IMG/VR virus record: IMGVR_UViG_3300010885_015247
Coordinates: 16,837-80,836 of that record
Origin: a virus
Reading direction: 5' to 3' (one strand)
Length of the DNA stretch: 64,000 nt
Below the pieces are notes generated by a model. It worked only from the letters and a program-made list of their open reading frames with translations. It had not been told where the DNA came from and made no database searches. The position numbers and the translations under genes were made by a program. Every line of letters starts with the position of its first letter. Within the stretch, counting starts at the first letter, position 1. Of the stretch, positions 3,373 to 64,000 are shown in pieces.

Positions 3373-3373
3373 A

Positions 3374-3754: not shown

Positions 3755-4131
3755 TGGGATCTAAAATGTACCCGTCAAGAGTGGAAACAATTAAATCTAT
3801 CCTAAGAGGTACTGCTTCTTCAGCAGGTAATATTACAATTTCATCAGTTAATGCAAACAAATCATTTGTTACATCATTTTCTATTGGATCAGCTGGAACG
3901 GTAGCTGGAACTGGTGATACATCTGGAACTTATACTCCAAGCGGTGGTTCGGTTGGAGCTCCTGGAGGAAACTTAAACACGTCTGGATCTTTTCCAACAT
4001 ACTCTGGAACAAGAAGCTTATCTGGTGGAACTACATCAATAGCAGCAGCAAAATATGGCGCATATCTAACGAATGACACGACATTAACAGTGACTGGTGC
4101 CTGTAATTGGCAAGTTATAGAGTATTCATAA
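3754..4131 (+). CDS. tandem fibre-associated paralogue 2 of 4
   Basis: 125 residues, starting at the ATG of a TAATG overlap with paralogue 1, so it is probably translated by reinitiation. It keeps the SI.RGTASSAGN, NKSF and GTRSLSGGTTS blocks and ends GACNWQVIEYS. The centre (TYTPSGGSVGAPGGN) differs from the other copies. No motif for catalysis, membrane insertion or metal binding is visible, and I cannot name a family; a structural role is inferred from the fibre operon. Confidence 0.8.
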   Translation: MGSKMYPSRVETIKSILRGTASSAGNITISSVNANKSFVTSFSIGSAGTVAGTGDTSGTYTPSGGSVGAPGGNLNTSGSFPTYSGTRSLSGGTTSIAAAKYGAYLTNDTTLTVTGACNWQVIEYS

Positions 4132-4517
4132 TGTCGATCTCTTTGTTTCCATTAAGTGTTTCTACAATTAAATCTATTCAAAGAGGGTCTACTGCTAGTG
4201 CAGGAAATATATCAATATCCTCCGTGGATACTAATAAATCTTTTGTTAGATCCTTTTCAACTGGATCTGCTGGTTCAGTCCAACTTGCAGGAGACGAGAC
4301 TGGAACACTAAGCCCAAGTGGGGGAGGAATTGTTGGACCTGGCGGCGGAGGCGGAGCAGTAGCTGGTGGAGGATCATTTGCAAATTATTCTGGAACTAGA
4401 TTCTTTAGTGGAGGAAGCACCTCTATTACAGTTCAAGAATACGGGGTATATATAACAAACTCTACAACAATAACAGCTACAGGTGCTTGCCGCTGGGAAG
4501 TCGTGGAGTATTCATAA
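4131..4517 (+). CDS. tandem fibre-associated paralogue 3 of 4
   Basis: 128 residues, again coupled through TAATG to the preceding gene. Its central loop is the most Gly-rich of the family (GGGIVGPGGGGGAVAGGGS), a likely flexible segment. The last coding bases, TGCTTGCCGCTGGGAAGTCG onward into the TAATG, are identical at nucleotide level to the end of paralogue 1 (about 3722-3757 and 4485-4520), which points to recent duplication or gene conversion. Confidence 0.8.
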   Translation: MSISLFPLSVSTIKSIQRGSTASAGNISISSVDTNKSFVRSFSTGSAGSVQLAGDETGTLSPSGGGIVGPGGGGGAVAGGGSFANYSGTRFFSGGSTSITVQEYGVYITNSTTITATGACRWEVVEYS

Positions 4518-4894
4518 TGTCAATACAAGTATATCCTGAAGTTGCTTCTGGAATTAAATCAGTTCAAAGAGGCTCAACTGCGTCTGCTGGAGCTATAACA
4601 GTTTCATCTGTAAATACTGCAAAATCTTTTGTTACTTCTTTTTCTACAGGTTCTGCTGGAACAGTAGCAACAAATAGCTCAGAGAGCGGCACGTTAACAC
4701 CTTCTGGAGGATCGGTTGCAACGCAAGCTAATGGCGCAATGGGTGGAGGCATATTTCCCAATTTTATTGGAACAAGAAGTTTAAGTGGGGGGTCTACTTC
4801 TTTAACATCGGCAGAGTATGGAGTAACATTAACAAACTCAACAACATTGACAGCAACAGGTGCTTGTCGATGGCAATTAGTAGAATACAACTAA
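4517..4894 (+). CDS. tandem fibre-associated paralogue 4 of 4
   Basis: 125 residues and the last copy of the array, coupled by TAATG to paralogue 3. It has the same framework as the others (IKSVQRGSTASAG, NTAKSF, GTRSLSGGSTS) with its own central segment, and ends GACRWQLVEYN instead of VVEYS. It is followed not by another coupled start but by a fresh AAGGAG and the next gene, consistent with the array ending here. Confidence 0.8.
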   Translation: MSIQVYPEVASGIKSVQRGSTASAGAITVSSVNTAKSFVTSFSTGSAGTVATNSSESGTLTPSGGSVATQANGAMGGGIFPNFIGTRSLSGGSTSLTSAEYGVTLTNSTTLTATGACRWQLVEYN

Positions 4895-10406: not shown

Positions 10407-11489
10407 ATGAAGGTAGCTATTTATACAATTGCACTCAATGAGCGTCAGTTTGTTGATAAGTGGTTTGAGGCATCTAAAGATGCTGACTACTTAATGATTG
10501 CAGATACTGGATCGACAGACGGCACTATAGAGCGTGCCAGAGAGCTCGGGATTGTAGTTCATAGTATTAAAAACATGCCTTGGAGATTTGATGATGCACG
10601 AAACGCTGCATTAGCACTCCTACCTGAAGATATTGACATGTGTATCTCTTTGGATATGGATGAAGTAATTACTCCAAATTGGAAGCCAGTTATAGAAGAA
10701 CTATGGAGCCGAGGAGTTACACGACCACGATATAAACATATTTGGTCGTTTAATGATGATGGAACTCCCGGTCTTGAGTTTAGCTACGATCACATCCATG
10801 CTCGTAAAGGCTATAGATGGCGTCACCCAGTTCACGAGTGTCTATATAGTTATGGAATTGAAGAAAAACAAGAGTGGACAGATGGACTTGCAACTCACCA
10901 TCATCCTGATCCAAGTAAGTCTCGTTCTCAATATCTACCGCTTCTTGCTCTTTCAGTTAAAGAAGATCCATACAATGATCGCAATGCTTTTTACTACGGG
11001 CGAGAGCTGTATTTCTACGGGAAGAATGAAGAAGCAGCTAGAGAGCTTAAGCGTCATCTAGATCTACCAACAGCACATTGGGCGCCAGAGCGTGCCGCAT
11101 CCATGCGTTTTATTGGTAAGTCACTCCCAGAAGAGGCAGAGATCTGGTTTAGAAAAGCAATTGCACAAGCACCTGGTCGCAGAGAACCATGGGTAGACCT
11201 TGCAAAGCTTTACTACGAAAGAAATGACTGGACTAACTCTTTAGAGACAGCCAAAGAAGCGTTAGCTATTGTAGAAAAACCCCTCGAGTATCTCTGTGAA
11301 GCAGAAGCTTGGGGTGCTGCACCGTATGACTATGCAGCTATAGCTTGCTATAACCTAGGAATGTATAAAGAAGCATCCGAGTATGCTCAACAAGCTTATG
11401 ACTTAGAGCCAAGCAATGAAAGGTTGAAAAACAATTTAGATTTTTGTTTAATGAAATCTGATTTAGTAAAGAAAAAAGGAAAAAAGTGA
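10407..11489 (+). CDS. GT2-family glycosyltransferase with TPR-like C-terminal half
   Basis: 360 residues. The N-terminal 220 residues are a GT-A domain: MKVAIYTIALNE opening strand, D33 (IADTGSTDGT), and a metal-binding D83-M-D85 (SLDMDEV). Conserved His/Trp blocks (HPVHECL) follow. The C-terminal 130 residues form helical TPR-like repeats (EAEIWFRKAIAQAPGRREPW, AIACYNLGMYKEASEYAQQA). This architecture is common in enzymes that glycosylate peptides or proteins. Placed in an operon with Thr-rich collagen-like fibres, it is a candidate for decorating those stalks. The next gene overlaps its last codons by 4 bp. Confidence 0.88.
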   Translation: MKVAIYTIALNERQFVDKWFEASKDADYLMIADTGSTDGTIERARELGIVVHSIKNMPWRFDDARNAALALLPEDIDMCISLDMDEVITPNWKPVIEELWSRGVTRPRYKHIWSFNDDGTPGLEFSYDHIHARKGYRWRHPVHECLYSYGIEEKQEWTDGLATHHHPDPSKSRSQYLPLLALSVKEDPYNDRNAFYYGRELYFYGKNEEAARELKRHLDLPTAHWAPERAASMRFIGKSLPEEAEIWFRKAIAQAPGRREPWVDLAKLYYERNDWTNSLETAKEALAIVEKPLEYLCEAEAWGAAPYDYAAIACYNLGMYKEASEYAQQAYDLEPSNERLKNNLDFCLMKSDLVKKKGKK

Positions 11490-13012
11490 ACATAGTTATT
11501 TGTGGAGGCGGGACAGCTGGTTGGCTGTCCGCTTTTATAGTAGCTCGAACAAATCCAGGACAGCACAACATAACAGTTATAGAGTCTTCCAAAATTGGGA
11601 TTGTCGGTGCTGGCGAGGCTTCTAGTGGTTTAATTATTGATATTCTAAGCGGATACTTTTTTCATAATAATAATAAACTTAATACAAATAGCGATATTGC
11701 AGAGATCGATATCTTAGATTTTATTGATAAAACAGATGGTATCCCGAAATATGCCTTAAAGCATATCAACTGGGCAAAAGATAAGGGATCGTATTTTGCT
11801 CCAGTTTCTGCTTCTGAAACAACAAGACACTCCCCTGATCAGCTTTTTAACTATGTCATATCAGAGTATGGTTTGGATAAAGCTTATCTTTGTAGTGCTA
11901 TAGGACAAGCATACGATAACAATAAATTCCCGATACAAAAAGATTTTGGATTACATTTTGATGCCTTTAAAGTTGGAAAATATATTAAAGATTACTTAGT
12001 TAAATACTACAGTGTTAAATCTGTAGATTCAGTTATTAAAAACATTAGGATTAAATCTAATGGAAACATAGAAGGAGTTCTTCTTGAAGACGGCTCAGTT
12101 CTAGAAGGAGATTTTTTTATAGACTGTACTGGTATGCAAAGAATACTAGCTAATAAACTGGAAATTAAATGGCATTCATATAAAGATTATCTTCCTGTAG
12201 ATAGAGCTATGCCTTTTCTTGTCCCATACAAGGAAGATAAAATAGTACAACCAGTTACTGAAGCCGAAGCTTTATCTTCTGGTTGGATGTGGAGAACACC
12301 TCTTCTAAGTAGAAGAGGGTGCGGCTACGTTTACAGTAGTAGTTTTATTTCTGAAGACGAGGCTCAAGCCGAAGCAGAAAAAATTATGGGGCATCCTATA
12401 GAACCTATTAGACATCTTAAGTTTGACTCTGGTCGGTTAGAAGAGGTCTGGAAGAAAAATTGTCTTGTTACTGGTCTTGCAAGCTCTTTTATTGAACCAT
12501 TAGAGGCCACATCTATCCATGCAACTATTGCTCAAGTATATTCATTCTGTCTAGAACATCTAACAAATAAAATTGAAACTACTGTTACAGAAGCAAATAT
12601 TAAAAATTACAATAAAAATATGATAAAAATGTATGAAAATTTATTAGACTTTACGGTCCTACATTATCAAGGTGGGCGTGATGATTCCGAGTTTTGGAGA
12701 TACATTAAAAATGAAAATTTAGTAACTCCGACTGTTCAAAACTATATTGAAAAAGCAAAAATTAAGATTCCAACCTATTTATATGACTCAGAGGAGCAGT
12801 GGGGAGCTAATAATCTTTGGAAGTGGAGTCTAGCTGGTCTAAATCTTATAGATCCAGAACTAGCAAGAGAAGAGCTTCTGCAATTTGACATGTACGAGTA
12901 CTCTAGAAATCACTATAATTTTTTTAGAGATGGTATTAAAAAAGACTTGTTAAATCAAAATTTACCTTTTGAGATTGATTTAAATAATCCTATTTCTTTT
13001 TATTTGTCTTAG
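11486..13012 (+). CDS. flavin-dependent tryptophan-halogenase family protein
   Basis: 508 residues from a GTG start that overlaps the previous stop, with AAGGA upstream. The FAD-binding GGGTAGW (7-13) opens the protein and GAGEAS follows at 41-46. K88 in PKYALKHINW aligns by eye with the catalytic lysine of PrnA/RebH (K79). A GWMWRTP segment corresponds to the diagnostic WxWxIP motif, with Thr in place of Ile. The length is normal for the family. A halogenase of this family (VirX1) is known from a cyanophage. No flavin reductase is seen nearby, so a host reductase would be needed. The substrate is unknown; free tryptophan, a peptide or a fibre component are all possible. It is the last gene of the plus-strand arm. 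Confidence 0.88.
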   Translation: MNIVICGGGTAGWLSAFIVARTNPGQHNITVIESSKIGIVGAGEASSGLIIDILSGYFFHNNNKLNTNSDIAEIDILDFIDKTDGIPKYALKHINWAKDKGSYFAPVSASETTRHSPDQLFNYVISEYGLDKAYLCSAIGQAYDNNKFPIQKDFGLHFDAFKVGKYIKDYLVKYYSVKSVDSVIKNIRIKSNGNIEGVLLEDGSVLEGDFFIDCTGMQRILANKLEIKWHSYKDYLPVDRAMPFLVPYKEDKIVQPVTEAEALSSGWMWRTPLLSRRGCGYVYSSSFISEDEAQAEAEKIMGHPIEPIRHLKFDSGRLEEVWKKNCLVTGLASSFIEPLEATSIHATIAQVYSFCLEHLTNKIETTVTEANIKNYNKNMIKMYENLLDFTVLHYQGGRDDSEFWRYIKNENLVTPTVQNYIEKAKIKIPTYLYDSEEQWGANNLWKWSLAGLNLIDPELAREELLQFDMYEYSRNHYNFFRDGIKKDLLNQNLPFEIDLNNPISFYLS

Positions 13013-13469
13013 TTTTCTGTAGTTTATCTTCTTTGTAAGATTCAACAGCATTTGCACTTGTACGACTTCTCCATGAAAAATTACACTCGGTGCAGGTAAC
13101 AATTTTTGCTGTTGTCCATCTACCACCGTTTGGTAGCTCTTCTATAGAAGTATCAAGCTTAGAAGGACGAGCAGTGCAATATGGACAATTAGGTACTCTT
13201 CTTCTTTTTGTTTCCTCACCGTTGTAGGATACGGAAAGAGTTCTACGAATGTCAACTTCATCTCTTCCACCCCAAATACCCCAAATTTGTCTATGTTCTA
13301 AGGCCCACTGCAGACACTGAGATCTGACAGGGCATTCAAAGCACATATTTTTAGCTGCATATTTTTTTGATGAATCGGTAGAAAAGAACCAATCAACAGA
13401 CTCTTTGTTTTTAGGATCGGCGCATAAAGCGTCTTTTTGCCATTCTAGGTTGTCTGCTGGTTTCCACAT
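12990..13469 (-). CDS. WhiB-family Fe-S regulator fused to a zinc ribbon
   Basis: 159 residues. WhiB signature: C16, then C43-x2-C46-x5-C52 (MCFECPVRSQC) for a 4Fe-4S cluster, and GIWGG at 64-68 preceding a basic stretch. Phage WhiB proteins act with or against the host primary sigma factor and are restricted to actinobacteria and their phages. The C-terminal 70 residues add a second metal site, C95-x2-C98 and C126-x2-C129, which standard WhiB proteins lack. The gene is the last of the minus-strand arm, and its 3' end overlaps the halogenase gene by 23 bp in convergent orientation. Confidence 0.92.
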   Translation of the reverse strand: MWKPADNLEWQKDALCADPKNKESVDWFFSTDSSKKYAAKNMCFECPVRSQCLQWALEHRQIWGIWGGRDEVDIRRTLSVSYNGEETKRRRVPNCPYCTARPSKLDTSIEELPNGGRWTTAKIVTCTECNFSWRSRTSANAVESYKEDKLQKTKTNKKK

Positions 13470-46751: not shown

Positions 46752-46871
46752 TTATACCGTCTTCTCTTCAATGGCTTCTGGATTGGCCACAAGACCTTTT
46801 TCGTTTAAAAGAGGCATTGCATCTTTTGTCTCGGTTACTTTACCTATTTCAAGTTCAGGGATTGATAACAC
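46752..46871 (-). CDS. 39-residue small ORF overlapping the end of the giant gene
   Basis: GTG at 46871 with AAGGAG and 6-nt spacing, both inside the last codons of the 3810-residue gene (out of frame with it). The peptide is MLSIPELEIGKVTETKDAMP and continues to EEKTV. The stop is 2 bp before the next ATG. An alternative is that the frame extends the giant protein through frameshifting at its end. No function can be given. Confidence 0.5.
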   Translation of the reverse strand: MLSIPELEIGKVTETKDAMPLLNEKGLVANPEAIEEKTV

Positions 46872-49800
46872 CTGTGTCTCCTTCGTCTAGTTTTCCAATA
46901 GCCATTTCAAGAATATTGGCTTGCTTTGTAAAACCCTCTGATCTTAGCAGTGCTACCCAAGTTGCGTACCACACTGAATTATGTCCACCGTCTCCGTTCG
47001 GGTTCTTCCAGTTAGCTTCCATCAGATGTGCAATCTCGTGAAGCAAAGCAACCTTGGTAGTTCCTCTACTTCTTACTAAAACAACAGGAAGATCTTTATC
47101 TTTAAATGGGTGAGAATCTGGCAAGCTTTCTGTAGTACCACGGGAAACTGCTGCCTCTACATCATTATGTTCTGGGTTCTCCGCAAAGAACTTGTCAGAG
47201 TTAGCCATACTAAGATTAAATACTCTATCCCCGTATCCATACTTAACTAGCATATCTGTAATATATTTTCCAACTTCAGCTTCATCAGAAATCACTTCTT
47301 GATCTTCCATAATGCGCTTGAACATAACACCAGAACCACCCTCGATGCGCCAGTCACTCTTGCGCTCTGGGTCGTATGTGACATCGTTCCATACGGTATG
47401 CATCTTTGATCCATACTTAATTTTTTCTGCTGTTACATTTGGATCAATGTTCTTTGGAGTCTTAGCTGTAGCAGCGAGTTCTTCTCCCGTTGTTCCCTCT
47501 TCGCCAACGTTAGCTTCTGGAGCTGTCTCTGGCTTTAATCCTGCATCTTCTGCGATCTGATCACCAGTCTTACCTTCGCTACCAACACCTTCGCCAACAG
47601 GCTCTACAGGATTTCCTTCTTCATCAACTTTTGCTGGCTCTTCTTGCTTGCCTAACATATGGTCTACAGCCTTCTGTGCTTGCTTGGCTGCCTTGATAAT
47701 CATCTGTGGATCGTTCTTAAGAGCTCCAAGCCATGACTTTGCATATGATGCAACATTACCGAAGTCAATCTCAACGCCTAGACGTGCTGCAACAAGTGCA
47801 ACAGAAATCTCTGCAATAAGTTCTTCCTCACCACGGCTAGCCTTGTGAGTTCCGTAGTTGTCTGTGAGATCTTTACGATTTACACGAGATGTATGTCCCG
47901 TGCTGTGTGCAAGCTCGTGAACTATAGTTTCAAAGATATCTTGCTCTGCACCGAACTGCTCACGGAGTGGCAAATGAATAGTGTCAGTTACTGGTGAGTA
48001 GTAAGCGCTGTCTTGAGACTTGTAGAAAATCTCTGGACGATCTTTATATGTATCAAGAAGAGTCTGCTCTCCTTGGCTTACTGGAACTGGTTCGCCTTTA
48101 ACTAGTGGTGGAAGGTTAATGCCTTCTGCTTGCTCTACGTTAAAGACGTTAATAATCTTTGGCGGTGTGTATACAAATACTTTTTCTGTGGTTCCATCTG
48201 GCTGCTTGACATCTTTAAACTTTGGAGTCCAGTGGATAATTGAAGTTGCCTTCTCGCCACGCTTAATGTTTCCACCAAGCTTTTCTGCTTGCTTATATGT
48301 AAGCCAGCGATTATCAGACCAACCATTACGCTCCTGAGCTGCCCAAAGTACGAGGACGTTTGTTCCTTCATACATTTTGCCAGTTGCAATACTAGTTGGG
48401 AGGAATCCTCCACCAGTCCAAGGCTTACGCCAAGGAGCAGTTCCATTTTCAAGAGCTTCAATAATTGCATCTGCAATTTTCTGTGTTGCTGGGTCAATCT
48501 TTTTTGCAGTTTCCTGTACTTCATTATCAAACTCTTCTGGTGTAACAGGAACTGGGTCTGTTTCAATCTTAGACATTGCTTGTAGAGTAAAAGATGGAGC
48601 AATAGCTTGCTCGTCTTCTTCAGATGTGTAGTCGTTAACCCAGCTGAGAGGTCCTAGATAAACTTCTTTCTGTGCACGAGTAATTGCAACATATGCAAGT
48701 CGAAGTTCTTCTGGTGCTGGCATATCAATCTCGCCAGTTTCCTTGTTAAACTTTGGACCCCAGAAGTCATCGTAGATTCGAACCTTGTTCCATTGCAAAC
48801 CCTTTGACTGATGTGCAGTAGTAATAACAACATCTGCCTTTACTGGCTCGATTACTCCTTCAAGAATTTTCTTAAGTTGATTGAGCTTATCTACTTTCTT
48901 AAGATCATCTTCAATAGTTATACGACGATCTTTTGCCCAGTTGCCGTCAGCATCTTTTCTTGCCTTAAACCCTGCTTCTTTAAGTTTTTCATTGTTATAT
49001 TTAAAGAATCCAGTAAGAACAACATCATCACCTTCAATAGTGTATGTGACACTACTATCTAGCTTTCCAGTAGAACCGTCCTCTACCTTGTCTAGAGTAA
49101 GAGGCTTGTAGTTCTTAAGAGCAATCTTGCTCTCTGCAGTTTCTTCACGCTCTACAACAACACGATCTAAAATCTCACGGATGCTTTGCATCCCATTCTG
49201 TGTTACCAAGTCGTAGAAAGCCTTAACTGGACGAGCTTTTCCTTCTCGGACTGCAGTTGAAAGTTCTTCCCAAGAGTCATACATTCCAATTTCTGCGTTG
49301 TACTTAGCTGGCTTCGAGCCTTTCTTTCCGCCCATAAGCCAACTTGTTGTATCAATAACTTCTTCAAGTCTTGTTTTAGTTGATTGACTAATTCCAACAA
49401 TCTTGCCTTGCTCAAGATACTCAAGCATTGCCTTAAATCCGCCACCATTTGTGCGAACAAGAACTGCATCTGGGTCTGGCATTTCATCTAAGCTCTCTAC
49501 AACTTTACCTTGATCTTTTCCAGCACCGATAACTTTCTCTGGCTTTCCAGCAACAGCAAGGAAACGGTTAGCAGGTGCTGCAATGTTTGGACCAAATCGG
49601 AATGATTCGTTGATTTGAAGCTTCTCTGCTCCTTCAAGAGTATCTAGTTGATCTTTAGCTCCACGGAATCCATAAATAGACTGATTTCCATCGCCAACAA
49701 ATACTTTTTGTACATTCTGCTTACGGACCCAATCGCCAGCAACATCATTAATATCCTGCGCTTCATCGAAGAAGATAATGTCTGCTGCAGGAATTACTTT

Positions 49801-52800
49801 GTCTGGGCTAGTAGACTCTGAGTCTGGTGACATTGTTACATCAATGCCATTAAGTTGAACATACTTTTCTGGGAAAGATTGATTCATCGACAAGCGACCC
49901 TTAGGACTTGAAATATCATCCCACCAGCGATTTGCGTAGTCGATAAATACTTCAGGAATGTCTACAAAATTATCTGTAAAGTGTTGAGGCATAATCTTCT
50001 CGTCTGCACTCTGTGCAAATGCTGTTACTGCTTGACGAACAACAGCAACTACTTCTCTGCTTGATAGATTTGCTTCTACCTTTGTTCCATCTTTTTTGAT
50101 CTCTACAACTTTAACTGGTCCTATTTCAAGATGATCTGCAACTTCTGTTGGAAGTCCAATAGATGTTTTATCAAAACTACGCTTTTGCATCCAAGTAGGT
50201 GAATGGTGCCAAGCAACCTGTGTATTGGTTCTTGCAATCATATTTGAAGGTTTGTCAGGATCAGCATTAAGTTCTGCAGCTACAGCCTTGTTAAATGCAA
50301 TATAAAGAATAGTTTTGTCTGGATCTTTTTCTGCAACGGCCTTTGCAGCCATCTTAAGTGTGCTGGTTTTACCTGTTCCAGCAAGAGCCTGAACAATTAC
50401 ATCCTTACCAGCAACTACAGCATCAATAACTGCTTGCTGTTGTTTAGTTGGCTTGATGCCCTTAGGTTCTGCATCTTCGCTATCTGAAACAAAATCTGGG
50501 TCTGGAGTTTCATCAGGGCTTCCAGTTGCATCTTCTGGGAACTCTTGATCAAGCGAGATCATTCCCATCTTTTGAAGATTAGGTTTCTCTCCTAAAGGAA
50601 GAGTGAACTCGTCTTGCTTTTCAATAGCCGTATATAGATCTGGAGATCTAACACTAAAGTTCCAATTTGGTGCAGCTGGATTATCAAAGTAAAGAATTTT
50701 TCCATCTGACTTAATAATTGCCTCGGTATTGTTAGGACCGATCATAACGATAATGTCGTCTGCTTCCATATCTTCACGGCGCTCAAGATCTTTTTTACTT
50801 GGCTTTACAAATGTAAACTTTCTTTCTAGAGGTGCACCAGTAGAGAGATTTGGCATAAATCCTGTAACAGATCTTTGATGACCCTTATCGTACTGAGATA
50901 TATCTTGAACTGCGGCTGTAAGTGCTTCTAATGCTTCTGGACTTACTTGACGATAATTAAGGTCCAGTGCGTATTTCATTCTTTTTTCTTCGTTTTCTTT
51001 CCAAACTCTGCTTCGCTCTTCAGCATCCATAACTACAGGCTCTTCTGGGACTTCAACCGCAGGAGTGTTATCTGTAACGTCTCCAGTAAGAAGTGAAGTA
51101 AGTTCTTCTGTAGACTTTGGAGTCTCGTTAGGGTTTACTGGCTCTCCAGTTGCAGGAGGAGTTGGATCTGTAAAGAACCCGCCGCCATCATCTGGATTAA
51201 TAATTTGTAGTGAACCTGCCGAGATGTTTTCACGCTTCTCGGCATCATCAAACTTTACCTTGACATAATTTTTGTATCCGCGAGGACCGTATGTTGTAAG
51301 GAGTGCTCTAACTTCACCCATACGTCCGTGCTTAGTACCACGAACTCTGTCGCCAACCTTGAGAGCAACACCATCTGCTGAAAGATGATTGATAGATGCA
51401 TCTGGGCGATCTGCAAGAACTACAGACTTAACAGTGTCATCTAGTGGAAGACCCTTGACTGCTTCCTCAACAGTTGCGTCTGATTTAGCACCAGATGTAA
51501 TTGTTTCGATTGCATCGGAGACAACACTCTGAGTCTCTTCTGGAGTAATTGACTTCTTACCCTTAGGTGTAGGAGTCTTATCCTTTGTCTTAGGTTCTGG
51601 AGCAACTACTACTGGCTTAGATGCTAAAGCTTTAACTTCTGCAGGTGTCTTACCAGCAAGTTCATTACGACGACGAAGTGTTCCCTTAAGAACCTTGCCG
51701 TTAGACCAGCCAATTCCAGGTGATTTCTTCTCTGTAACTCGTGTGCTATAAAGCTCACCGCTTGAAACAATCTTGCGAACAACAATAGTTCCGTTTGGAT
51801 CTTCTGGGTCTGCAATCAGATCAACCACTTCGTGGTATCCGCCACCCTCGGCTGGTACGAAGTCACCAATCTTAATATCTCCTACAGTTGCTGCACCTTC
51901 GTCAACAACAAAAGTGTTTTCATCATCTTCGATCCAAGTGTCATTAATCTTTCCACCAAAGATTGATTCATATGCGTACTCTTCAGCAGAATCTGTGCTT
52001 CCTTCAGGACCAAAAGTAGATGTTGTCTTGGTCTTACCAAGCATCTCGTCAACTGATACTTGCTCTCCAGACATACCACGCTTGACTGCTTCAGCCATAG
52101 CTAGTTCTGCTTCTTGCTTCTTAAATGCTTCTAGCTTCTCGTTGTATGAAGAACGCTTAGCCTCAAACTCTGCAAGACGAGTTGCAGCATCAAACTCTCT
52201 ATTGTCAGGCTTCATATCGCCAAGCAAACCTTCTAGGATTGCTGGAAGAACCTCTGAATCAGTTCTGGCATCATGCCACTCTTCATCTGTCTTCTCAATA
52301 CCGTAGCGCTTAGCAACTTGACCAAGCTTGTTACCCTTAGGAGTCATGCTTTTTGCTAATTCAAGAGTATCAATAACTCCATCCATGTTGTAATCAATAC
52401 CAAACTTCTTAGCCCACTTCTCAAATGTATTTGTATCAAACTCAGCGTTGTGTGCAACAAAGATTGCATCTTGTCCAGCAAACTCTGCAAATGCACGAAG
52501 CTGATCTTCAATAGATGGCTGAGTTGCTAAGAACGCATCGTCAACTGTTTGACCATCAAAGCTGAGTAGCTTCTCTGGATCAAGAACTTTATTTCCATCT
52601 GCATCTGTCTTGTAGTAGTAGTCTCCAAGAGGCTCTCCTGGATTGATGAACAGGTTGATTTCTCCAACCTTCTCTCCACCTTCCCAGACAGATGCTGCAA
52701 CCTGAATAGGTGCATCAGGATTATCGTTATCAAACTTTCCAGTTCCTACTGTTTCAAAATCAAAGTAGACAACTCGCTTGCCCTTAAGAGCATCTGAGAT

Positions 52801-55800
52801 TGCTTTTCCATCTTTAAGGTTTGCAAGTTCTGCAGCTTTACCAAAGAACGCTGGACGATTTCCACGATTATAGCTATTAGGCTTTTCTACAAGTACTGCA
52901 GGGATTTCTGATGCTGTTAGATCAGGAGTGTATGCCTTTCCAGCTTCTTTTCTTAATGCTGCAATTTCCGCGTTCTTATCTTTATAAGCCTGACCCTTAA
53001 GAGTTCCTGGCTCAATACTATCAATTGCTGGCTTGTCACCCTTAGCAGGAATCTTCTCTGCCTTTTCTCCACGAAGAACTTCTACAGATGTACCAGTCTT
53101 CCAAGACTTAACTTGTGATTCGTGTCCTGGATAGTATCCACGGATTTGAACCTTCTCTTCTGCTGGCTTTCCATCTGCACGAGGGACCATAACTGTGCCT
53201 GGTAGAACTTCTTCGATAACAAAGAACTCACTGAGTTCGCCATTCTCGTCACGACGGAATGCAATATCATTTGGCTTCAAATCTCTACCAAGTGCGTTAA
53301 CAACGTGAAGAGTATTCTCGGGTGTAAATTCTTTTACAGTAGGTTCAACTTCTGGAGCATTCCACAAAGCCTTCTGTGTAGATAGTTGCTCTTGGTACTT
53401 TTCCATATCTTGTTCAAATTGCTTTTGCTCAGCTGGGTCTTTTAGTTCCCAGTCGCCATTGACCTTTGTAAGCTTTCCGTAGTCGCCCATCTTTGGCTGA
53501 TTAAGTTCTGGTAAATCTCCCTTTGCAGGAGGAGTTACATCACGATATACATCAAAGAGAACATCGTCTGCCCAAAGTTTGCTTGACTGCTCTACTCCGC
53601 CAGGATAATAACCACTTACACGAGAAGCTGGGACCATTTCCCCGTTTCGCTTCTTTTCAAATCCTTCTTCTACATTTGTAACTGTAAAGAAATCTTTAGT
53701 CATAACATCGCCAGGTTTAAGATCTGTTGTCTTAGCTGTCGCAATGCGTGGGTTTGTTACTACTACAGCATCTTCAATATCTGATTCGTTAGTTGCGCTT
53801 GAGGTTTGTTCTGATTCAGTAGTAGTTGGATCTTCCTTGACTTCTGGTGAATCTGGAACTACCTCGGCATCAACAATATCTGCTTCTGGTTTAGTTTGAT
53901 CGGAAGGAGTCCCTTCAGACTCGACAGTAACATCGCCGGGCTTTGATGGGCCCTTCTTGCTACGGAAGAAGTTCCAACCAAGTTCTTCGTTAAGTCTTCT
54001 ACCAATCTCTTCTAATTCTTCAGTAGTTAAACTATCTAAAATATCTGTGAATGCTTTAATTGTTGAACGATCAGGGTTCTCTAGTTCAAGAGCGCCAGGA
54101 CCAAACTCTGTGAAGATCATCTTGAGGATAAGTTCCTTGCGACGCTTTGCTTCTTTCTTTAGCTCCCTCTTGCTCTTTTTAGAAGTAGGATCTTCTTTAG
54201 TGTCTTGATCTTCAGGCTCTTCGTCTTTTTCTTTTTTAGCTCTAGAAATGTCGTTATCTGATGTAAGAGCATCTGTAGGCACTTCGTTGACAATCTGATC
54301 GATCTTCTCATTCATTTCATCACGCATCTCAACGAGTGCGTCAAATTCTTCTGGTGTTAAGCCGTTTGCTTCTGCATTTTTAATTGCCTCGTTTGCAATC
54401 TTGCGATCTTCAACAAGTTGTTTAAGAGTTTCTTTTGCATACTCCTGAGAGGCAGGGTTTTCTGGATCAAAGGTTGCTTCTTTTATCTTTACCTTTGGCT
54501 CTTTAACATCTTCAGTAGGTGTGGTATCTGCAGGAGTTCCTTCAGGGAACTCTGGAGCTGGCTTACCCTTAAGATTTTTTTCGTAGTAATCAAATGCTTC
54601 TTGAGGAGAGTTAAACTCCACTGTTTGATCTAGACCATCGCCAATAAGGAACCAATACTTAGCTCCTGGCTGGTCAACAAGATCGAGAATAGTTCCATCT
54701 TCATTCTTAGCAAGAGTTGCAGACTCTGGATCCTTTGACCAACCTTCTGGCAAAGTATCTGGAAGTGCATCAGCAATGTCTGTCTTATCTTTTGAAACCT
54801 CTGGGCCAGCAACATCTTTAGTCTCTGGTGCTACTTCTTCGCCCTCTGGTGTTTTAGGGGCTGTACGAGTCTCTACAGACTCATCTTTAGAATCAAGATC
54901 AATTGGTGGCTGTCCTTCTCTTGGAAGAAGGTCGATACCAAACTTATCTCTTAGCTCACGAAGGAACTTCTTAGCACTTGCCTCATCCATGCCAGACTTT
55001 GTTTCAGCCTTAGCATCTGGGTTCCAATCAAAGCCATTGTCATCTAAGAAGTCTTTAACTTCTTGCATTCTAAATGGAGCCTTCTTACCAGAGCGAAGAT
55101 CTAGACGATCTCCTGTGAGTTTGTAAGAAACTTGAGGAGCAATCGCGTCTTCCTCTGCTTTTTTGTTGTCTTTTTCAATTTGCTTATCTAGCTTTGCAAT
55201 TTCTTTTGCAAGAGTTGCACGAACAGAGTCGATTGCTTTATTTTCAATAACATCTGTCTCGTCTAGATCCTCTTTAGCAAGACCAAGTTGGTCATCGGCT
55301 GCTTTAAGGATATTTCTAACATTCTCGTTTGAGCGCTCACCTGTTTGCCAGTCTTTAAAGCCACCACGAATTGACATTGTTGGATCTTGTAGAAGATCAA
55401 GTGCGTATTGAACACGACCTGAAGGTCCTGGCTCGAAACCATACTCTCCCATATCAATTGCAGATACTTCATCTCCAGACTCAAAGCCTTCCATTTCTTT
55501 ATCTTGATAATCAGATAAGAGAGGGCTGTTAAATGTAGGATCGTTAAAGAAAGCTGCAAGTCTTGTGAAATCTTTATTTTTAGTAAGCATTTCATGGAAA
55601 CGCTCGTCTTTACTTACACTAGTAAGCCATTCGTCAGCTGTCCATCCTTCTTTAATAGGATCTTTACCTGACTTGGAACCTTTGCCATCAGCTGGCACTT
55701 CTGATGTAGGAGTATCTGCTACAGGCTCTTCTTCTTCTGTTTCTGGCTGTTCTGGAAGATCATCTGGATCAATAATGTCTTGAGTTTCCTTATAAGAATT

Positions 55801-58287
55801 AATAACATCTTCAGCAATTTGACGAGCTTCTGCTTTATTCTTTGCAGGATAGTTTTCTTCGGCATCTATTCCACGATCAGGAGAGAGTCTAACTGCATCT
55901 GCTGACCAATTTCCGTCTTCGTCTTTTCCATATGAAACAATAGTATTGTTATCTATGTCGTATTCCATACGACCTGTTTCTTTATTCTTTTTAAACTTTA
56001 TTGGATCCTTTTCTTCTACAGGATCATATGCACCATTTAATACTGCTCCGTTGACCTCATCCATATTGTAGTCACGCAACTTGATTGCATCACGAAGGAC
56101 TTCACTCGGAATCTGAACAGTCTGTACTTCATTATTCTCGTCTTCAATACCAAAAGGTGCAGATCCGTTTTCGTCAAAAAGATTTTTAACAGCGCCGTTA
56201 TATGATTCAATTAAATCATCATCTGATAGTTCTGAGTTAGCGAGCTCTAGTGCTTGCTTACGCTCGTCTTCACTAAGAATTCTATCTTGAGGAGGTGTAG
56301 AGCCTTCTGGCCACTCGACAGGTCCATCCTTTGGAAGATACGGGGTGTAGTCACCGTTCTTTTGAAAATCTGCTTTTTCTTCTTCTGTAAGTCCATCAAG
56401 AAGTGCTGGAAGTTTAGATGGTTCTGCATCTTCAGTGATTTCTGGGAGCTCTGCAACAGGAGTTTTCTCTTCTGCAGGTGCTTCTGGCTCTGGAGCTTTT
56501 GTTACTTCATCAAATACTTCGCCAAGCTTCTTTGGCTTACCAATCTTTCCTTCTTTATCTGCTTCACGTTGTGCAGCAAGTGCATCTTCGTTTTCGTTTG
56601 TTCCAAGACGCTTATCGTAGGCTTGAGCAAGTGCAAGTTCTGCATCTCCGCCTTTTTCATCAATTGCTTTAAGGATTGCTTCTGCTGGAACTTCTTGTTC
56701 TCCACCAGTAGGTTCTCCATCTGAATCTGTTCCATCTGGGAATGTTAAACGGCCAAGACCAGTATCGAGTGCATCATCAAGACCTTCAACAAGTTCATCA
56801 CCTTGGAACATATTTGCAAGAGATGCAGGGTCGTCATACTCGGAGACTGATCGGTATGGCGCAGTTGGGTTTGTAATCTCGTATGTATCTTCTGGAACCT
56901 TGTATTTAAACTCTGGTGATGCTCCTGCAGGTGCTTCTGGCTCTGAAAGACGTGCAATCTCTTCTTTCTTAAATTTATCTTGCTGATCTACAAGTGGAGT
57001 TTCGTCCTCTGGAGTGTTGTCATCTTGTGTGATTCGTGCAAGAGGTGTACGACCCTCTTCTTCATCAAGGAATCTTTGATCTGCTTGAATTCTCTGCTGT
57101 GCATCGTTCCAATTCTGTGTATATGCAAAAGGAGTTCCGCCACGACGTGAAACTGCATAGATTGGTTTCTCTGGATCCCAGAACTGCTTACCTGAATCTG
57201 GATCTGTCTCGCCTTGCTTATCAACTGCAGCGTCATCTAAATCACGCTCTGCTCTAAGTTTGTTTGTTTCAGTAAGATCTGCAAGAGCACGCTTATTGTC
57301 GTCAAACTTAACTACATCATAAGCTTGGTCTGTGTACTTAGTTGTTCCCTGCTTGCTTCCTCTCTCATCTTTTTCAAATGAGCTAGGGCTTTCCATAAAT
57401 GTAAGATCTGCTTCATCAATAATTGGATCATCCATATCATCTGCTGATGAGCCAGCAGGTGTGAAGCCATCTTTCTTTGCTGCAGGACTTGGAAGAAAGT
57501 TACTTCCTCTTGCCTGACGGATTGGCATTGCAACGATGCGTCCATCTTCTAATTCAACATCTGCAAGTTGTGGACTAAAGATGTTCTGACCAACTGCACG
57601 ACCTGAAAGCGACTGTGTACTTCCATCACGACGTTTTACCTTGATACCAAGGCCACCAAACATCTCGACCCAGCGGCCGATACGATCACGAAGCTGGAGA
57701 GCAACACGAGCACGCTTTGCAGCAGCAGAGTTTCCTCCGCCATATGCTGCAGTCATCGCCTCTAATGGAACATGACCTTGTGGAAGGTTCTCAAGACGTG
57801 TAATTGCATAAAGTTTTTCTGGAGAGTTAGCTGGAGCAAGCATTGCAGATGCAATAAGTGCTTTAGCATCTTCATTTGTAATGCGTGGATCATCTGTAAC
57901 CCATTGAACGTGTGTGCGAATCATCGCTGAAGCCGTCATAGAGTGTGCACGGGTTGAACGTGGGTGTGTGAGAGGAAGAAGATCGGTATTAAATGCTGTT
58001 AAGCCAACTACCTTGTTGTGTTTTGCGAGTGCGATGTAGTTTGAGAGCTCTGTGAGCGCTTGATGCTTTCGAACCGAAAATGGCAAGCCTTCAGAAGAAT
58101 GTAAAGACCTAGAGATGACACGAAAAGCTGAGCGACGATTAACTCTACGGGTGTTAGTTGTAAATTCATTAGCTGCCTCAATCATTTGTAGTGCTTCACT
58201 TCGAATAATGCGTGCCTGTTGACGAGTACTGAAGGTAGTCTCGCTTTGAGAAAGAACGTGAAGCTGTCTCTTATCTTTCTTAGACAT
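46855..58287 (-). CDS. giant polyvalent protein (exonuclease, helicase, ArdC-like and metallopeptidase domains)
   Basis: 3810 residues, one uninterrupted frame. N-terminal module 1-121 with DLLP (102-105), HPRST (108-112) and MTASA (117-121), like the 325-residue neighbour. A QLRDRIGRW element is at 198-206. Residues 300-1830 are a long acidic region with small beta modules, two of them with GYYPG. About 1835-2020: DEDDh exonuclease (YFDFET, HNAEFD, HDARTD). About 2615-3220: UvrD-like SF1 helicase (AGTGKT, DEAQD, GDGNQSIYGFRG, THQSKG-like AHQSKGL, AITRAQ). About 3262-3540: ArdC-like domain with HELAHSTGH. About 3670-3810: second metallopeptidase (HEIAH). Such polyvalent proteins are known in large phages and plasmids and are thought to be delivered into the host with the DNA. 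Confidence 0.88.
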   Translation of the reverse strand: MSKKDKRQLHVLSQSETTFSTRQQARIIRSEALQMIEAANEFTTNTRRVNRRSAFRVISRSLHSSEGLPFSVRKHQALTELSNYIALAKHNKVVGLTAFNTDLLPLTHPRSTRAHSMTASAMIRTHVQWVTDDPRITNEDAKALIASAMLAPANSPEKLYAITRLENLPQGHVPLEAMTAAYGGGNSAAAKRARVALQLRDRIGRWVEMFGGLGIKVKRRDGSTQSLSGRAVGQNIFSPQLADVELEDGRIVAMPIRQARGSNFLPSPAAKKDGFTPAGSSADDMDDPIIDEADLTFMESPSSFEKDERGSKQGTTKYTDQAYDVVKFDDNKRALADLTETNKLRAERDLDDAAVDKQGETDPDSGKQFWDPEKPIYAVSRRGGTPFAYTQNWNDAQQRIQADQRFLDEEEGRTPLARITQDDNTPEDETPLVDQQDKFKKEEIARLSEPEAPAGASPEFKYKVPEDTYEITNPTAPYRSVSEYDDPASLANMFQGDELVEGLDDALDTGLGRLTFPDGTDSDGEPTGGEQEVPAEAILKAIDEKGGDAELALAQAYDKRLGTNENEDALAAQREADKEGKIGKPKKLGEVFDEVTKAPEPEAPAEEKTPVAELPEITEDAEPSKLPALLDGLTEEEKADFQKNGDYTPYLPKDGPVEWPEGSTPPQDRILSEDERKQALELANSELSDDDLIESYNGAVKNLFDENGSAPFGIEDENNEVQTVQIPSEVLRDAIKLRDYNMDEVNGAVLNGAYDPVEEKDPIKFKKNKETGRMEYDIDNNTIVSYGKDEDGNWSADAVRLSPDRGIDAEENYPAKNKAEARQIAEDVINSYKETQDIIDPDDLPEQPETEEEEPVADTPTSEVPADGKGSKSGKDPIKEGWTADEWLTSVSKDERFHEMLTKNKDFTRLAAFFNDPTFNSPLLSDYQDKEMEGFESGDEVSAIDMGEYGFEPGPSGRVQYALDLLQDPTMSIRGGFKDWQTGERSNENVRNILKAADDQLGLAKEDLDETDVIENKAIDSVRATLAKEIAKLDKQIEKDNKKAEEDAIAPQVSYKLTGDRLDLRSGKKAPFRMQEVKDFLDDNGFDWNPDAKAETKSGMDEASAKKFLRELRDKFGIDLLPREGQPPIDLDSKDESVETRTAPKTPEGEEVAPETKDVAGPEVSKDKTDIADALPDTLPEGWSKDPESATLAKNEDGTILDLVDQPGAKYWFLIGDGLDQTVEFNSPQEAFDYYEKNLKGKPAPEFPEGTPADTTPTEDVKEPKVKIKEATFDPENPASQEYAKETLKQLVEDRKIANEAIKNAEANGLTPEEFDALVEMRDEMNEKIDQIVNEVPTDALTSDNDISRAKKEKDEEPEDQDTKEDPTSKKSKRELKKEAKRRKELILKMIFTEFGPGALELENPDRSTIKAFTDILDSLTTEELEEIGRRLNEELGWNFFRSKKGPSKPGDVTVESEGTPSDQTKPEADIVDAEVVPDSPEVKEDPTTTESEQTSSATNESDIEDAVVVTNPRIATAKTTDLKPGDVMTKDFFTVTNVEEGFEKKRNGEMVPASRVSGYYPGGVEQSSKLWADDVLFDVYRDVTPPAKGDLPELNQPKMGDYGKLTKVNGDWELKDPAEQKQFEQDMEKYQEQLSTQKALWNAPEVEPTVKEFTPENTLHVVNALGRDLKPNDIAFRRDENGELSEFFVIEEVLPGTVMVPRADGKPAEEKVQIRGYYPGHESQVKSWKTGTSVEVLRGEKAEKIPAKGDKPAIDSIEPGTLKGQAYKDKNAEIAALRKEAGKAYTPDLTASEIPAVLVEKPNSYNRGNRPAFFGKAAELANLKDGKAISDALKGKRVVYFDFETVGTGKFDNDNPDAPIQVAASVWEGGEKVGEINLFINPGEPLGDYYYKTDADGNKVLDPEKLLSFDGQTVDDAFLATQPSIEDQLRAFAEFAGQDAIFVAHNAEFDTNTFEKWAKKFGIDYNMDGVIDTLELAKSMTPKGNKLGQVAKRYGIEKTDEEWHDARTDSEVLPAILEGLLGDMKPDNREFDAATRLAEFEAKRSSYNEKLEAFKKQEAELAMAEAVKRGMSGEQVSVDEMLGKTKTTSTFGPEGSTDSAEEYAYESIFGGKINDTWIEDDENTFVVDEGAATVGDIKIGDFVPAEGGGYHEVVDLIADPEDPNGTIVVRKIVSSGELYSTRVTEKKSPGIGWSNGKVLKGTLRRRNELAGKTPAEVKALASKPVVVAPEPKTKDKTPTPKGKKSITPEETQSVVSDAIETITSGAKSDATVEEAVKGLPLDDTVKSVVLADRPDASINHLSADGVALKVGDRVRGTKHGRMGEVRALLTTYGPRGYKNYVKVKFDDAEKRENISAGSLQIINPDDGGGFFTDPTPPATGEPVNPNETPKSTEELTSLLTGDVTDNTPAVEVPEEPVVMDAEERSRVWKENEEKRMKYALDLNYRQVSPEALEALTAAVQDISQYDKGHQRSVTGFMPNLSTGAPLERKFTFVKPSKKDLERREDMEADDIIVMIGPNNTEAIIKSDGKILYFDNPAAPNWNFSVRSPDLYTAIEKQDEFTLPLGEKPNLQKMGMISLDQEFPEDATGSPDETPDPDFVSDSEDAEPKGIKPTKQQQAVIDAVVAGKDVIVQALAGTGKTSTLKMAAKAVAEKDPDKTILYIAFNKAVAAELNADPDKPSNMIARTNTQVAWHHSPTWMQKRSFDKTSIGLPTEVADHLEIGPVKVVEIKKDGTKVEANLSSREVVAVVRQAVTAFAQSADEKIMPQHFTDNFVDIPEVFIDYANRWWDDISSPKGRLSMNQSFPEKYVQLNGIDVTMSPDSESTSPDKVIPAADIIFFDEAQDINDVAGDWVRKQNVQKVFVGDGNQSIYGFRGAKDQLDTLEGAEKLQINESFRFGPNIAAPANRFLAVAGKPEKVIGAGKDQGKVVESLDEMPDPDAVLVRTNGGGFKAMLEYLEQGKIVGISQSTKTRLEEVIDTTSWLMGGKKGSKPAKYNAEIGMYDSWEELSTAVREGKARPVKAFYDLVTQNGMQSIREILDRVVVEREETAESKIALKNYKPLTLDKVEDGSTGKLDSSVTYTIEGDDVVLTGFFKYNNEKLKEAGFKARKDADGNWAKDRRITIEDDLKKVDKLNQLKKILEGVIEPVKADVVITTAHQSKGLQWNKVRIYDDFWGPKFNKETGEIDMPAPEELRLAYVAITRAQKEVYLGPLSWVNDYTSEEDEQAIAPSFTLQAMSKIETDPVPVTPEEFDNEVQETAKKIDPATQKIADAIIEALENGTAPWRKPWTGGGFLPTSIATGKMYEGTNVLVLWAAQERNGWSDNRWLTYKQAEKLGGNIKRGEKATSIIHWTPKFKDVKQPDGTTEKVFVYTPPKIINVFNVEQAEGINLPPLVKGEPVPVSQGEQTLLDTYKDRPEIFYKSQDSAYYSPVTDTIHLPLREQFGAEQDIFETIVHELAHSTGHTSRVNRKDLTDNYGTHKASRGEEELIAEISVALVAARLGVEIDFGNVASYAKSWLGALKNDPQMIIKAAKQAQKAVDHMLGKQEEPAKVDEEGNPVEPVGEGVGSEGKTGDQIAEDAGLKPETAPEANVGEEGTTGEELAATAKTPKNIDPNVTAEKIKYGSKMHTVWNDVTYDPERKSDWRIEGGSGVMFKRIMEDQEVISDEAEVGKYITDMLVKYGYGDRVFNLSMANSDKFFAENPEHNDVEAAVSRGTTESLPDSHPFKDKDLPVVLVRSRGTTKVALLHEIAHLMEANWKNPNGDGGHNSVWYATWVALLRSEGFTKQANILEMAIGKLDEGDTGVINP

Positions 58288-62552: not shown

Positions 62553-63072
62553 GGATCTTATTCTACAGGCTTTTGAAAGAGTCGTTCAGAAAGCTAGAGG
62601 GGAAATCGTATTGTACGAAAGGGGAGAATATATGAACCTTTACATAAATTGCTTTTGACCTGCGAGAAGGGTACGGGTTGTTTTTGGCTTTTTCAAAATC
62701 GTTCCGGGCTTTTTTTTCTAGAGTTTTTACCCCCTTTTTTATTTATCTTTTTTATTGTTTTTTATTTCAAAATCACTCTAAAAAATCTTACATAAGGCTA
62801 TCTTTTTATTTTTTGTTAAGAAATCGATCAAATGAAAAACTTTTTATTTATTATTTTCTATCTAGGAATCTTCTTTCTTTTCTTTACTACTTCTTCTTAT
62901 CTAAAGTCCTTGAACTTAAATGACCAGTCTTGTTTAATCTAGATAGGTCACTTGATACAAGACTAGTCACCTACCTACCTGCCTAGTTACTGCCTAGTAA
63001 CTTAGGCTCATGTCTTGAAAGTGGTCAGAAATCTAGGTCTAAAAGTGTGACTGGTCATCTGCCTATTATGTC
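62553..63072. other. noncoding divergent region with inverted repeats and a T-rich tract
   Basis: No gene is seen. 62690-62880 is strongly pyrimidine(T)-rich on the plus strand. Arms GACCAGTCTTGT (62922-62933) and ACAAGACTAGTC (62957-62968) are inverted with one mismatch; TGACCAGTC (62921-62929) is inverted again as GACTGGTCA (63050-63058); GTTACT-GCCT-AGTAAC (62986-63001) is a perfect small palindrome. The layout suits an operator cluster or replication origin between divergent operons. Confidence 0.55.
62560..62565 (-). promoter_or_regulatory. candidate -10 box TAGAAT for the leftward head operon
   Basis: TAGAAT on the minus strand ends 7 nt before the ATG at 62552, placing the start site at or next to the A of ATG. 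Leaderless messages are common in actinobacteria. The -35 region (about 62583-62588) is poor. Confidence 0.45.
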
Positions 63073-63108
63073 TTGACAAAGTGCAGGAAGGTCGTGTATC
63101 TTTATCTT
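63073..63108 (+). promoter_or_regulatory. promoter, copy 1 of 3
   Basis: TTGACA (63073-63078), 18 bp, TATCTT (63097-63102), with a second TATCTT directly after. The block TTGACAAA.GTCAGGAAGGTCGTGTATCTTTATCTTA is nearly identical to the one at 63488. Confidence 0.85.
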
Positions 63109-63129
63109 ATTGGAACAGGGAGTTCCAAT
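63109..63129 (+). promoter_or_regulatory. 5'-leader hairpin with AGGGA loop, copy 1
   Basis: ATTGGAAC - AGGGA - GTTCCAAT, a perfect 8-bp stem starting 7 bp after the -10 box, so it forms the very 5' end of the transcript. The loop is identical in copies 2 and 3 while the stems differ. Confidence 0.8.
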
Positions 63130-63149
63130 ACATACAAAGGGAGAAACAA

Positions 63150-63410
63150 ATGTCATACGGAGTTCAACTTACAGTTAAATACACAGAAGCAACTTCAAAT
63201 GGAACAGTCACTACAGAAAGAGATTATTCTTTCCATGTTGATACCGCATCAAATGCATGCGATTTAATTACTGAAACCGCAAAGAATGCAAAGGAAATGG
63301 GAGCAACCGTATTAAAGGTTAAGGTAACTGAAGAGAATCCAAACTCTTATGAGAACCCTTACCGCAACCTTTCAGATAGCGAAATCTTGGACTTACTCCT
63401 AACCAAGTAA
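63150..63410 (+). CDS. small early protein
   Basis: 86 residues from ATG 63150, after AAGGGAG; an in-frame upstream ATG or GTG lies in the promoter region and is rejected. The sequence is beta-alpha in pattern (YGVQLTVKYTEATSNG, ATVLKVKVTEENPN), with no metal-binding or membrane motif. It forms a complete single-gene unit: promoter, 5' hairpin, gene, terminator. Such short, separately promoted genes next to an intergenic region are often early host-takeover proteins. No family recognised. Confidence 0.8.
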   Translation: MSYGVQLTVKYTEATSNGTVTTERDYSFHVDTASNACDLITETAKNAKEMGATVLKVKVTEENPNSYENPYRNLSDSEILDLLLTK

Positions 63411-63422
63411 CCGCAAAGAATT

Positions 63423-63454
63423 AGCCCCCCTATCCAAGGGGGGCTTTTTCTTTT
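63423..63454 (+). terminator. rho-independent terminator
   Basis: AGCCCCCC (63423-63430) pairs with GGGGGGCT (63438-63445), 7-nt loop, followed by TTTTCTTTT. Confidence 0.93.
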
Positions 63455-63487
63455 CCCGACACGCCGTAAAGCTTTTTCTTTTATAGT

Positions 63488-63517
63488 TTGACAAATGTCA
63501 GGAAGGTCGTGTATCTT
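63488..63517 (+). promoter_or_regulatory. promoter, copy 2 of 3
   Basis: TTGACA (63488-63493), 18 bp, TATCTT (63512-63517). The spacer contains GTCAGGAAGGTCGTG as in copy 1, conserved well beyond the two boxes. Confidence 0.85.
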
Positions 63518-63525
63518 TATCTTAA

Positions 63526-63542
63526 CGGTTCAGGGAGAACCG
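63526..63542 (+). promoter_or_regulatory. 5'-leader hairpin with AGGGA loop, copy 2
   Basis: CGGTTC - AGGGA - GAACCG, 6-bp stem, 9 bp after the -10 box. The stem sequence is unrelated to copy 1 yet fully paired. Confidence 0.8.
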
Positions 63543-63564
63543 CAAAACAAAAGGGAGAAACAAA

Positions 63565-63834
63565 ATGACAACACTAGCAATGACCGCAACACTAGCGATC
63601 AACCCAATTCAACTATCTCTAATCGAGACAGCACTAGAGATTGAAATCAAGACATACAGCACAAGCAAAATGAAACTCACTAGAGAACCTGCTCTCCGCA
63701 CTTTTGCTCGTCTTATCGGTGACCCTCTACACCTTCCAAAGTTTAGAGGACTACAAGGACGCAAGGACGCACTTGCAATCGTTAAAGACTTCCTCGCACA
63801 ACTTGAGGACGGCAGGGCTACCGTAGTGAAGTAG
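63565..63834 (+). CDS. small early protein
   Basis: 89 residues with AAGGGAG upstream. Mostly helical and basic in the middle (KMKLTREPALRTFARLIGD, KFRGLQGRKDALAIVKDFL). It could be a small nucleic-acid or protein-binding factor, but nothing specific is seen. It has its own promoter, hairpin and terminator, like the gene before it. Confidence 0.8.
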   Translation: MTTLAMTATLAINPIQLSLIETALEIEIKTYSTSKMKLTREPALRTFARLIGDPLHLPKFRGLQGRKDALAIVKDFLAQLEDGRATVVK

Positions 63835-63850
63835 CCAACTCCCTAAAGAA

Positions 63851-63876
63851 CCCCTCGAGAAATCGGGGGGTTTTTT
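63851..63876 (+). terminator. rho-independent terminator with GAAA tetraloop
   Basis: CCCCTCGA (63851-63858) pairs with TCGGGGGG (63863-63870) around GAAA, followed by TTTTTT. Confidence 0.92.
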
Positions 63877-63889
63877 ATTGGGCGTGTCC

Positions 63890-63918
63890 TTGCAAATGTC
63901 AGGAAGATAGGTTATAGT
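63890..63918 (+). promoter_or_regulatory. promoter, copy 3 of 3
   Basis: TTGCAA (63890-63895), 17 bp, TATAGT (63913-63918). It keeps CAAATGTCAGGAAG of the other copies, with one base lost in the -35 region and a different -10. Confidence 0.75.
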
Positions 63919-63924
63919 TCTTTC

Positions 63925-63945
63925 ATAAGCACAGGGAGTGTTTAT
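63925..63945 (+). promoter_or_regulatory. 5'-leader hairpin with AGGGA loop, copy 3
   Basis: ATAAGCAC - AGGGA - GTGTTTAT, 8-bp stem with one G-T pair, 7 bp after the -10 box. It is a third stem sequence with the same loop. Confidence 0.8.
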
Positions 63946-63966
63946 AAAGAACTAGGGAGAACTAAA

Positions 63967-64000
63967 ATGATAAGCGATTTCTTCGGTAACACAATGGATA
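63967..64000 (+). CDS. small early protein, 5' end only
   Basis: ATG after AGGGAGAACTAAA; 11 codons (MISDFFGNTMD) before the window ends. It follows the third promoter and hairpin, so it is the next member of the single-gene series. Identity cannot be judged. Confidence 0.55.
   Translation, partial: MISDFFGNTMD

Follow-up and report, generated by a model that had tools for sequence, protein, structure and literature searches.

The leaders described here belong to an uncultured group of actinobacterial phages and are best explained as modular leaders of early-type gene cassettes, in which a 5'-terminal hairpin would protect the mRNA; on the sequence evidence, we give this reading a probability of about one half. 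The window, the whole stretch of 64,000 bases analyzed, covers positions 16,837 to 80,836 of an 80,836-base IMG/VR virus record, and its right edge is the end of the contig. By its portal protein, the virus is closest to Actinomycetia phage DSL-LC01 (74% identity), whose 129-kb genome comes from a lake-water assembly (PMC10611076); large Microbacterium phages come next. Because of this kinship, and because WhiB, an actinobacterial family, occurs in six of seven phage records, the host is probably an actinobacterium. In the window, the WhiB-family match (6e-19; 13251-13442, minus strand) adjoins a tryptophan halogenase gene (11486-13012). Also encoded in the window are four tandem overlapping paralogs of ∼135 residues (TIKSxxRGSTASAG..., 3353-4894, plus strand), each in a new frame, within a collagen-like tail-fiber region, and a single ORF of 3810 residues (46855-58287, minus strand) in the head gene region, between the portal and major head protein genes.

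Three times on the plus strand, the window repeats a unit of promoter, short leader and small gene. Promoter 1 (63073-63102) joins TTGACA and TATCTT across an 18-nt spacer with a CAGGAAG box. It is followed by hairpin 1 (63109-63129, ATTGGAAC-AGGGA-GTTCCAAT, predicted +1 at 63109), a ribosome-binding site (RBS) in the AAGGGAGAA region (63137-63145) whose AGGGA core is identical to that of the loop, gene 1 (63150-63410, 86 residues) and an intrinsic terminator identified by the terminator scan (63423-63445, 9-bp stem and U-run). The second cassette contains a TTGACA-18-TATCTT promoter with the CAGGAAG box (63488-63517), hairpin 2 (63526-63542, CGGTTC-AGGGA-GAACCG, predicted +1 at 63524), an RBS again in a AAGGGAGAA region (63552-63560), gene 2 (63565-63834, 89 residues) and a likely terminator at ∼63853-63876 (CCCCTCGAGAAATCGGGGGG, then a U-run), recognized by eye and absent from the scan output. 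In the third, a TTGCAA-17-TATAGT promoter with the CAGGAAG box (63890-63918) precedes hairpin 3 (63925-63945, ATAAGCAC-AGGGA-GTGTTTAT with one G-U pair, predicted +1 at 63925), the RBS AGGGAGA (63954-63960) and the start of gene 3 (63968-64000, MISDFFGNTMD...), which is cut because the window stops at the contig end; the full gene encodes 52 residues in relative L004. The cassette order is repeated in relative L039, with terminators behind the first two genes. Gene size and arrangement suggest that the cassettes carry early genes. Gene 1 is conserved in the relatives and has no Pfam or PHROG match; no relative was found in bacterial genomes or in named phages, and comparison of its predicted structure (pLDDT 77) with the PDB gave nothing significant. 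Shortly upstream of the leader-1 promoter, a palindrome (TGACTAGTCA / TGACTGGTCA, 63048-63057) is present in nearly all relatives (L012:5889-5898 and equivalents); together with ATGACCAGTC/GACTAGTCA sites at 62920-62969, also upstream of this promoter, it is the probable operator of the first cassette.

The original prediction had placed three hairpins directly after homologous promoters, and all three are found there. Hairpin 1 has 8 bp plus a ninth pair (63108/63130), hairpin 2 has 6 bp and hairpin 3 has 8 bp including the G-U pair; the loop is AGGGA and the closing pair C-G throughout. Although AGGGA occurs 37 times on the plus strand of the window and 34 times on the minus strand, a stem of at least 4 bp surrounds only these three sites, which occupy the same place behind the three homologous promoters. 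Counted on the sequence, the CAGGAAG box and the loop lie 26 nt apart in all three copies. By our own estimate (∼0.38 per standard pair), chance would yield ∼0.2 stems of 6 bp among the 71 sites, and such stems would not need to sit in phase with a promoter. When the segment from +1 to about +26 was folded, hairpins 1, 2 and 3 gave -8.9, -8.1 and -6.7 kcal/mol (z-scores -4.3, -3.3 and -7.1), with the hairpin starting at predicted positions +1, +3 and +1, respectively.

Relatives were gathered from IMG/VR using promoter patterns and gene-1 protein searches, yielding ∼70 loci, several of them on the same contig. A promoter weight matrix and anchored folding were then applied, with 77 distinct promoter-leader pairs picked by promoter alone. 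The pattern recurs two to eight times in each of 13 relative records, whereas the reversed pattern has one match across all 13. A CAGGRAR box is conserved within the -35/-10 spacer (window promoters and loci L003-L079) and may be read by an activator; no sigma-70 region 4 gene, and hence no phage sigma factor to account for the box, was found in seven phage records. The predicted +1, the base 7 nt past the -10 hexamer, is an A in 70 of the 77 pairs, and the base before it is a pyrimidine in all 77. An A preceded by a pyrimidine is a typical start-site signature, although the start sites themselves are predicted from the promoters. The call is supported by a small gene (MKFLPDSAV...) whose ATG falls exactly on the predicted +1 in L004 and L043 (minus strand), as expected of a leaderless mRNA driven by a promoter of this family; in L011, L021 and L040, the ATG of this gene likewise lies at the predicted +1. 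Since some promoters of the family drive short hairpin-less leaders or leaderless genes, the hairpin is not obligatory. The family also precedes a distinct structured leader of ∼80 nt (L060:3300-3400, plus strand; also L025, L039, L040, L041, L042, L043, L053, L062 and L073), in which a closing stem of ∼10 bp (ACTTAGTAGGG/CCCTACTAAGT) encloses a conserved core, GTCGCTGGTCACCTGAACG...GGTCGGAAACAATACGAC, followed by an RBS and a gene. With double changes at 5 of 21 predicted pairs and no Rfam match, it is a candidate riboswitch-like element.

Folding and covariation in the relatives bear out the claim that the changing but paired stems reflect selected RNA structure, as does the consistent predicted start site. 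The leaders fold far better than their shuffles (49 of 77 within the lowest 5%, compared with 9 of 77 for a downstream control), and the first paired base in the 65 folded leaders is +1 in 25 and +2 in 21 (46 of 65 together). For gene 1, 11 distinct leaders were aligned, most of them by protein similarity and L003, L004/L009, L005 and L008 by promoter-and-loop pattern. In this alignment, 98.9% of pair cells are paired, and double changes occur at 6 of 8 pairs. Double-changed cells number 19 against a shuffled mean of 6.4, and the covariation score is 0.775 against 0.344 (sd 0.053), while in slid controls paired cells drop to 26-46%; because the leaders are related, these shuffle counts should not be read as probabilities. 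A set of nine leaders from different genes, all with the loop AAGGG, is 100% paired with double changes at 6 of 6 pairs (covariation score 1.370 versus 0.372); these were picked as hairpins, which makes the gene-1 test the less biased of the two. Among 37 distinct leaders selected only by the promoter and an AGGG at +4 to +20, 27 have 5-8 contiguous pairs around the loop, compared with ∼6% when the arms are re-dealt. Maintenance of the stems in related phages, which had been set beforehand as the test, was thus found in both orthologous and AAGGG-loop leaders. The description of the stems as fully compensated holds for the pairing itself, with the qualification that G-U wobbles are included. 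Mixed leaders aligned with MAFFT gave no structure in RNAalifold, because this aligner matches AAGGG to AGGGA by sequence and shifts the stems; alignments of orthologs and of a single loop class took their place. Scanning IMG/VR for the exact hairpin (TCGCTAAGGGAGCGA) was also discarded, the matches being mostly chance occurrences inside genes.

According to the preferred reading, a cassette consists of a promoter with the CAGGAAG box, a short leader, one small gene and often a terminator, and its transcript would begin at, or 1-3 nt before, a hairpin of 5-9 bp. Located at the 5' terminus, the hairpin would shield the message against decay that depends on the 5' end (pyrophosphohydrolase, RNase E or RNase J) and leave the RBS downstream free, which would let short transcripts last; the purine AGGG loop core, echoed in the AGGGA RBS, probably contacts the 30S subunit or a protein in addition. 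This reading is preferred because the hairpin lies at or near the predicted first nucleotide, the RBS is about as open with it as without it, and the stem-loop can be swapped before the same gene. Being located outside the stem, the RBS is predicted to be about equally accessible in both states. In the MKxAIKLT... gene family, the AAGGG hairpin of one phage (L060-7225) is replaced in others (L039+8028 and L022+3772) by a stem of 4-5 bp with an 11-nt loop, which keeps its place at the 5' end, as expected if the terminal stem itself matters. Both 5'-terminal stem-loops and polypurine/SD sequences are established mRNA stabilizers, including those of phage SP82 and T4 gene 32 (PMC7509114, PMC3997798, PMC8948821), and mycobacterial katG mRNA is stabilized by a polypurine RBS (PMC2358910). 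This reading is weakened by DSL-LC01, the nearest named genome, in which a different repeated promoter is followed mostly by unstructured leaders: of 31, 7 reach a folding energy of -5 kcal/mol or better, and at least two (36658 and 40138) begin with a hairpin at +1. Terminal hairpins may therefore be optional add-ons across these phages. The repeated promoter of DSL-LC01 (GATTCTAAAGATGTTATAATAGAATC; L049, OQ999401:24300-43400) has a dyad around the -10 and precedes ∼30 small genes sharing a GACGAAAGGACAA leader.

Counting against a pure stabilizer, a conserved loop is unneeded for protection, yet AAGGG or AGGGA is found on ∼20 stem variants. The same AGGGA loop had been predicted for all copies, which holds in the window; in the relatives, AAGGG is commoner (26 leaders, 14 stem variants) than AGGGA (10 leaders, 7 variants), and AAGGGA (4 leaders, 4 variants), an 11-nt class resembling GAAACCAAGTA (9 leaders) and the rarer AAACG, AATCAC, AACAAC and AAACA also occur. 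The loop is not invariant, yet the AGGG core returns on stems with little common sequence and appears to be under selection of its own. Behind these leaders, AGGGA serves as the RBS in 43 of 53 distinct cases; among 48 other long ORFs it does so in 2, AGGAG or AAGGA being more frequent there. This link between loop and RBS is the strongest hint that a reader recognizes the sequence itself, although shared descent of the cassettes could also explain it. A tentative alternative is accordingly a protein operator, in which a phage or host RNA-binding protein would read AGGG in the loop and AGGGA at the RBS, with a two-site logic like that of CsrA/RsmE, and would repress or activate translation of the early mRNAs as a set. 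Besides the conserved core and the RBS bias, it draws on the loop-to-RBS distance of ∼21-22 nt in the window and on the AGGGA and AAGGG loops, both of which fit the same core into 5 nt but in different register; neither AAGGA nor AGGGG was seen as an intermediate. However, CAAGGGGC, AAACG and the 11-nt class lack GGA, and the bound phage protein of the original prediction is kept as a rival; the search for a candidate, including the fold comparison for gene 1, found none. CsrA was rejected as a general loop reader, with no CsrA gene in eight phage records, which are possibly incomplete. That a dedicated phage or host factor reads AGGG in both places, making the early-cassette mRNAs a post-transcriptional regulon, is rather doubtful.

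It is unlikely that the loop serves as a ribosome dock, touching the 16S 3' end (standby or STAB-SD) and handing the 30S subunit to the RBS ∼22 nt downstream. Loop and RBS share their core, and with an anti-SD of the actinobacterial type AGGGAG and AAGGGG pair at -6.8 and -6.2 kcal/mol, as computed in isolation. Full-length pairing of a pentaloop with rRNA is nevertheless impossible unless the stem opens, AAACG and other loops have no complementarity (-1.1), and the stronger SD core AGGAG was never found in a loop. The proposed SD-like loop may apply to some leaders, in that the core equals the leader RBS and pairs with the anti-SD on paper, but it does not hold for the family as a whole: an SD core is missing from AAACG and other loops, and steric constraints make a loop of 5 nt ill suited to such pairing. 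Action of the nascent hairpin on RNA polymerase, through pausing, escape or put/nut-like antitermination, would suit the fixed position relative to the promoter and the resemblance of the CAGGRAR spacer box to the loop core; it is very improbable, given that a terminator and a new promoter directly behind gene 1 make antitermination unneeded and that the loops are not GNRA-like, unlike boxB. Inverted repeats near promoters are often operators, so chance or a palindromic DNA operator was weighed as well and is scarcely credible: the arms differ in sequence between copies, slid and shuffled controls fail, and the tolerance of G-U pairs fits RNA better than DNA.

As 5'-terminal hairpins, these elements are of a known kind, and several described systems share some of their features. 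The 5' stem-loops of ompA and T4 gene 32 likewise place a stem at or near the predicted 5' end with the RBS outside it; here, in contrast, an AGGG loop core is kept on freely changing stems, dozens of copies occur in one phage group, and stabilization is proposed by inference. Polypurine/SD stabilizers (Bacillus phage SP82, aprE, cry and mycobacterial katG) also combine a purine-rich SD-like sequence near the 5' end with an RBS, whereas the purine motif here lies inside a hairpin loop. T4-type CUUCGG hairpins are short, stable intergenic or leader elements with variable stems and a constant loop; unlike them, the present loops are AAGGG or AGGGA with no UUCG and occur with a single promoter family, at the 5' end. 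CsrA/RsmE sites present ANGGA in a hairpin loop with a second site at the RBS, which AGGGA loops fit and CAAGGGGC and AAACG loops, lacking GGA, do not. The GNRA-like pentaloop of lambda boxB/nut is not matched by AAGGG, AGGGA, AAACG or the other loops. The SAS/ESAS elements of cluster K mycobacteriophages likewise recur in the leaders of many small actinophage genes, and some contain inverted repeats (PMC3203893), but ESAS repeats have a consensus sequence and the stems here have none; no site resembling the SAS motif GGGATAGGAGCCC was found in the window with up to 2 mismatches allowed. Rfam gave no match above the gathering score in the window or five relatives. A T4 RegB-type nuclease (PF10715) had no match in the phages, in a search whose positive control had no match either. 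In the open-access literature, we found no family that combines an AGGG loop core, drifting stems, a fixed promoter distance and a matching RBS, and no data on how short messages are maintained or marked in these actinobacterial phages.

The leaders thus reveal an uncultured phage group in which many small genes carry the same type of 5' RNA hairpin, and the sequences give evidence that both the pairing of the stem and the core of the loop are selected. They provide a testable handle on how actinobacterial phages preserve short messages or mark them for control. If a dedicated AGGG reader exists, the hairpin family would represent a new class of RNA operator in actinophages. The leaders could also double as compact expression elements in actinobacteria.
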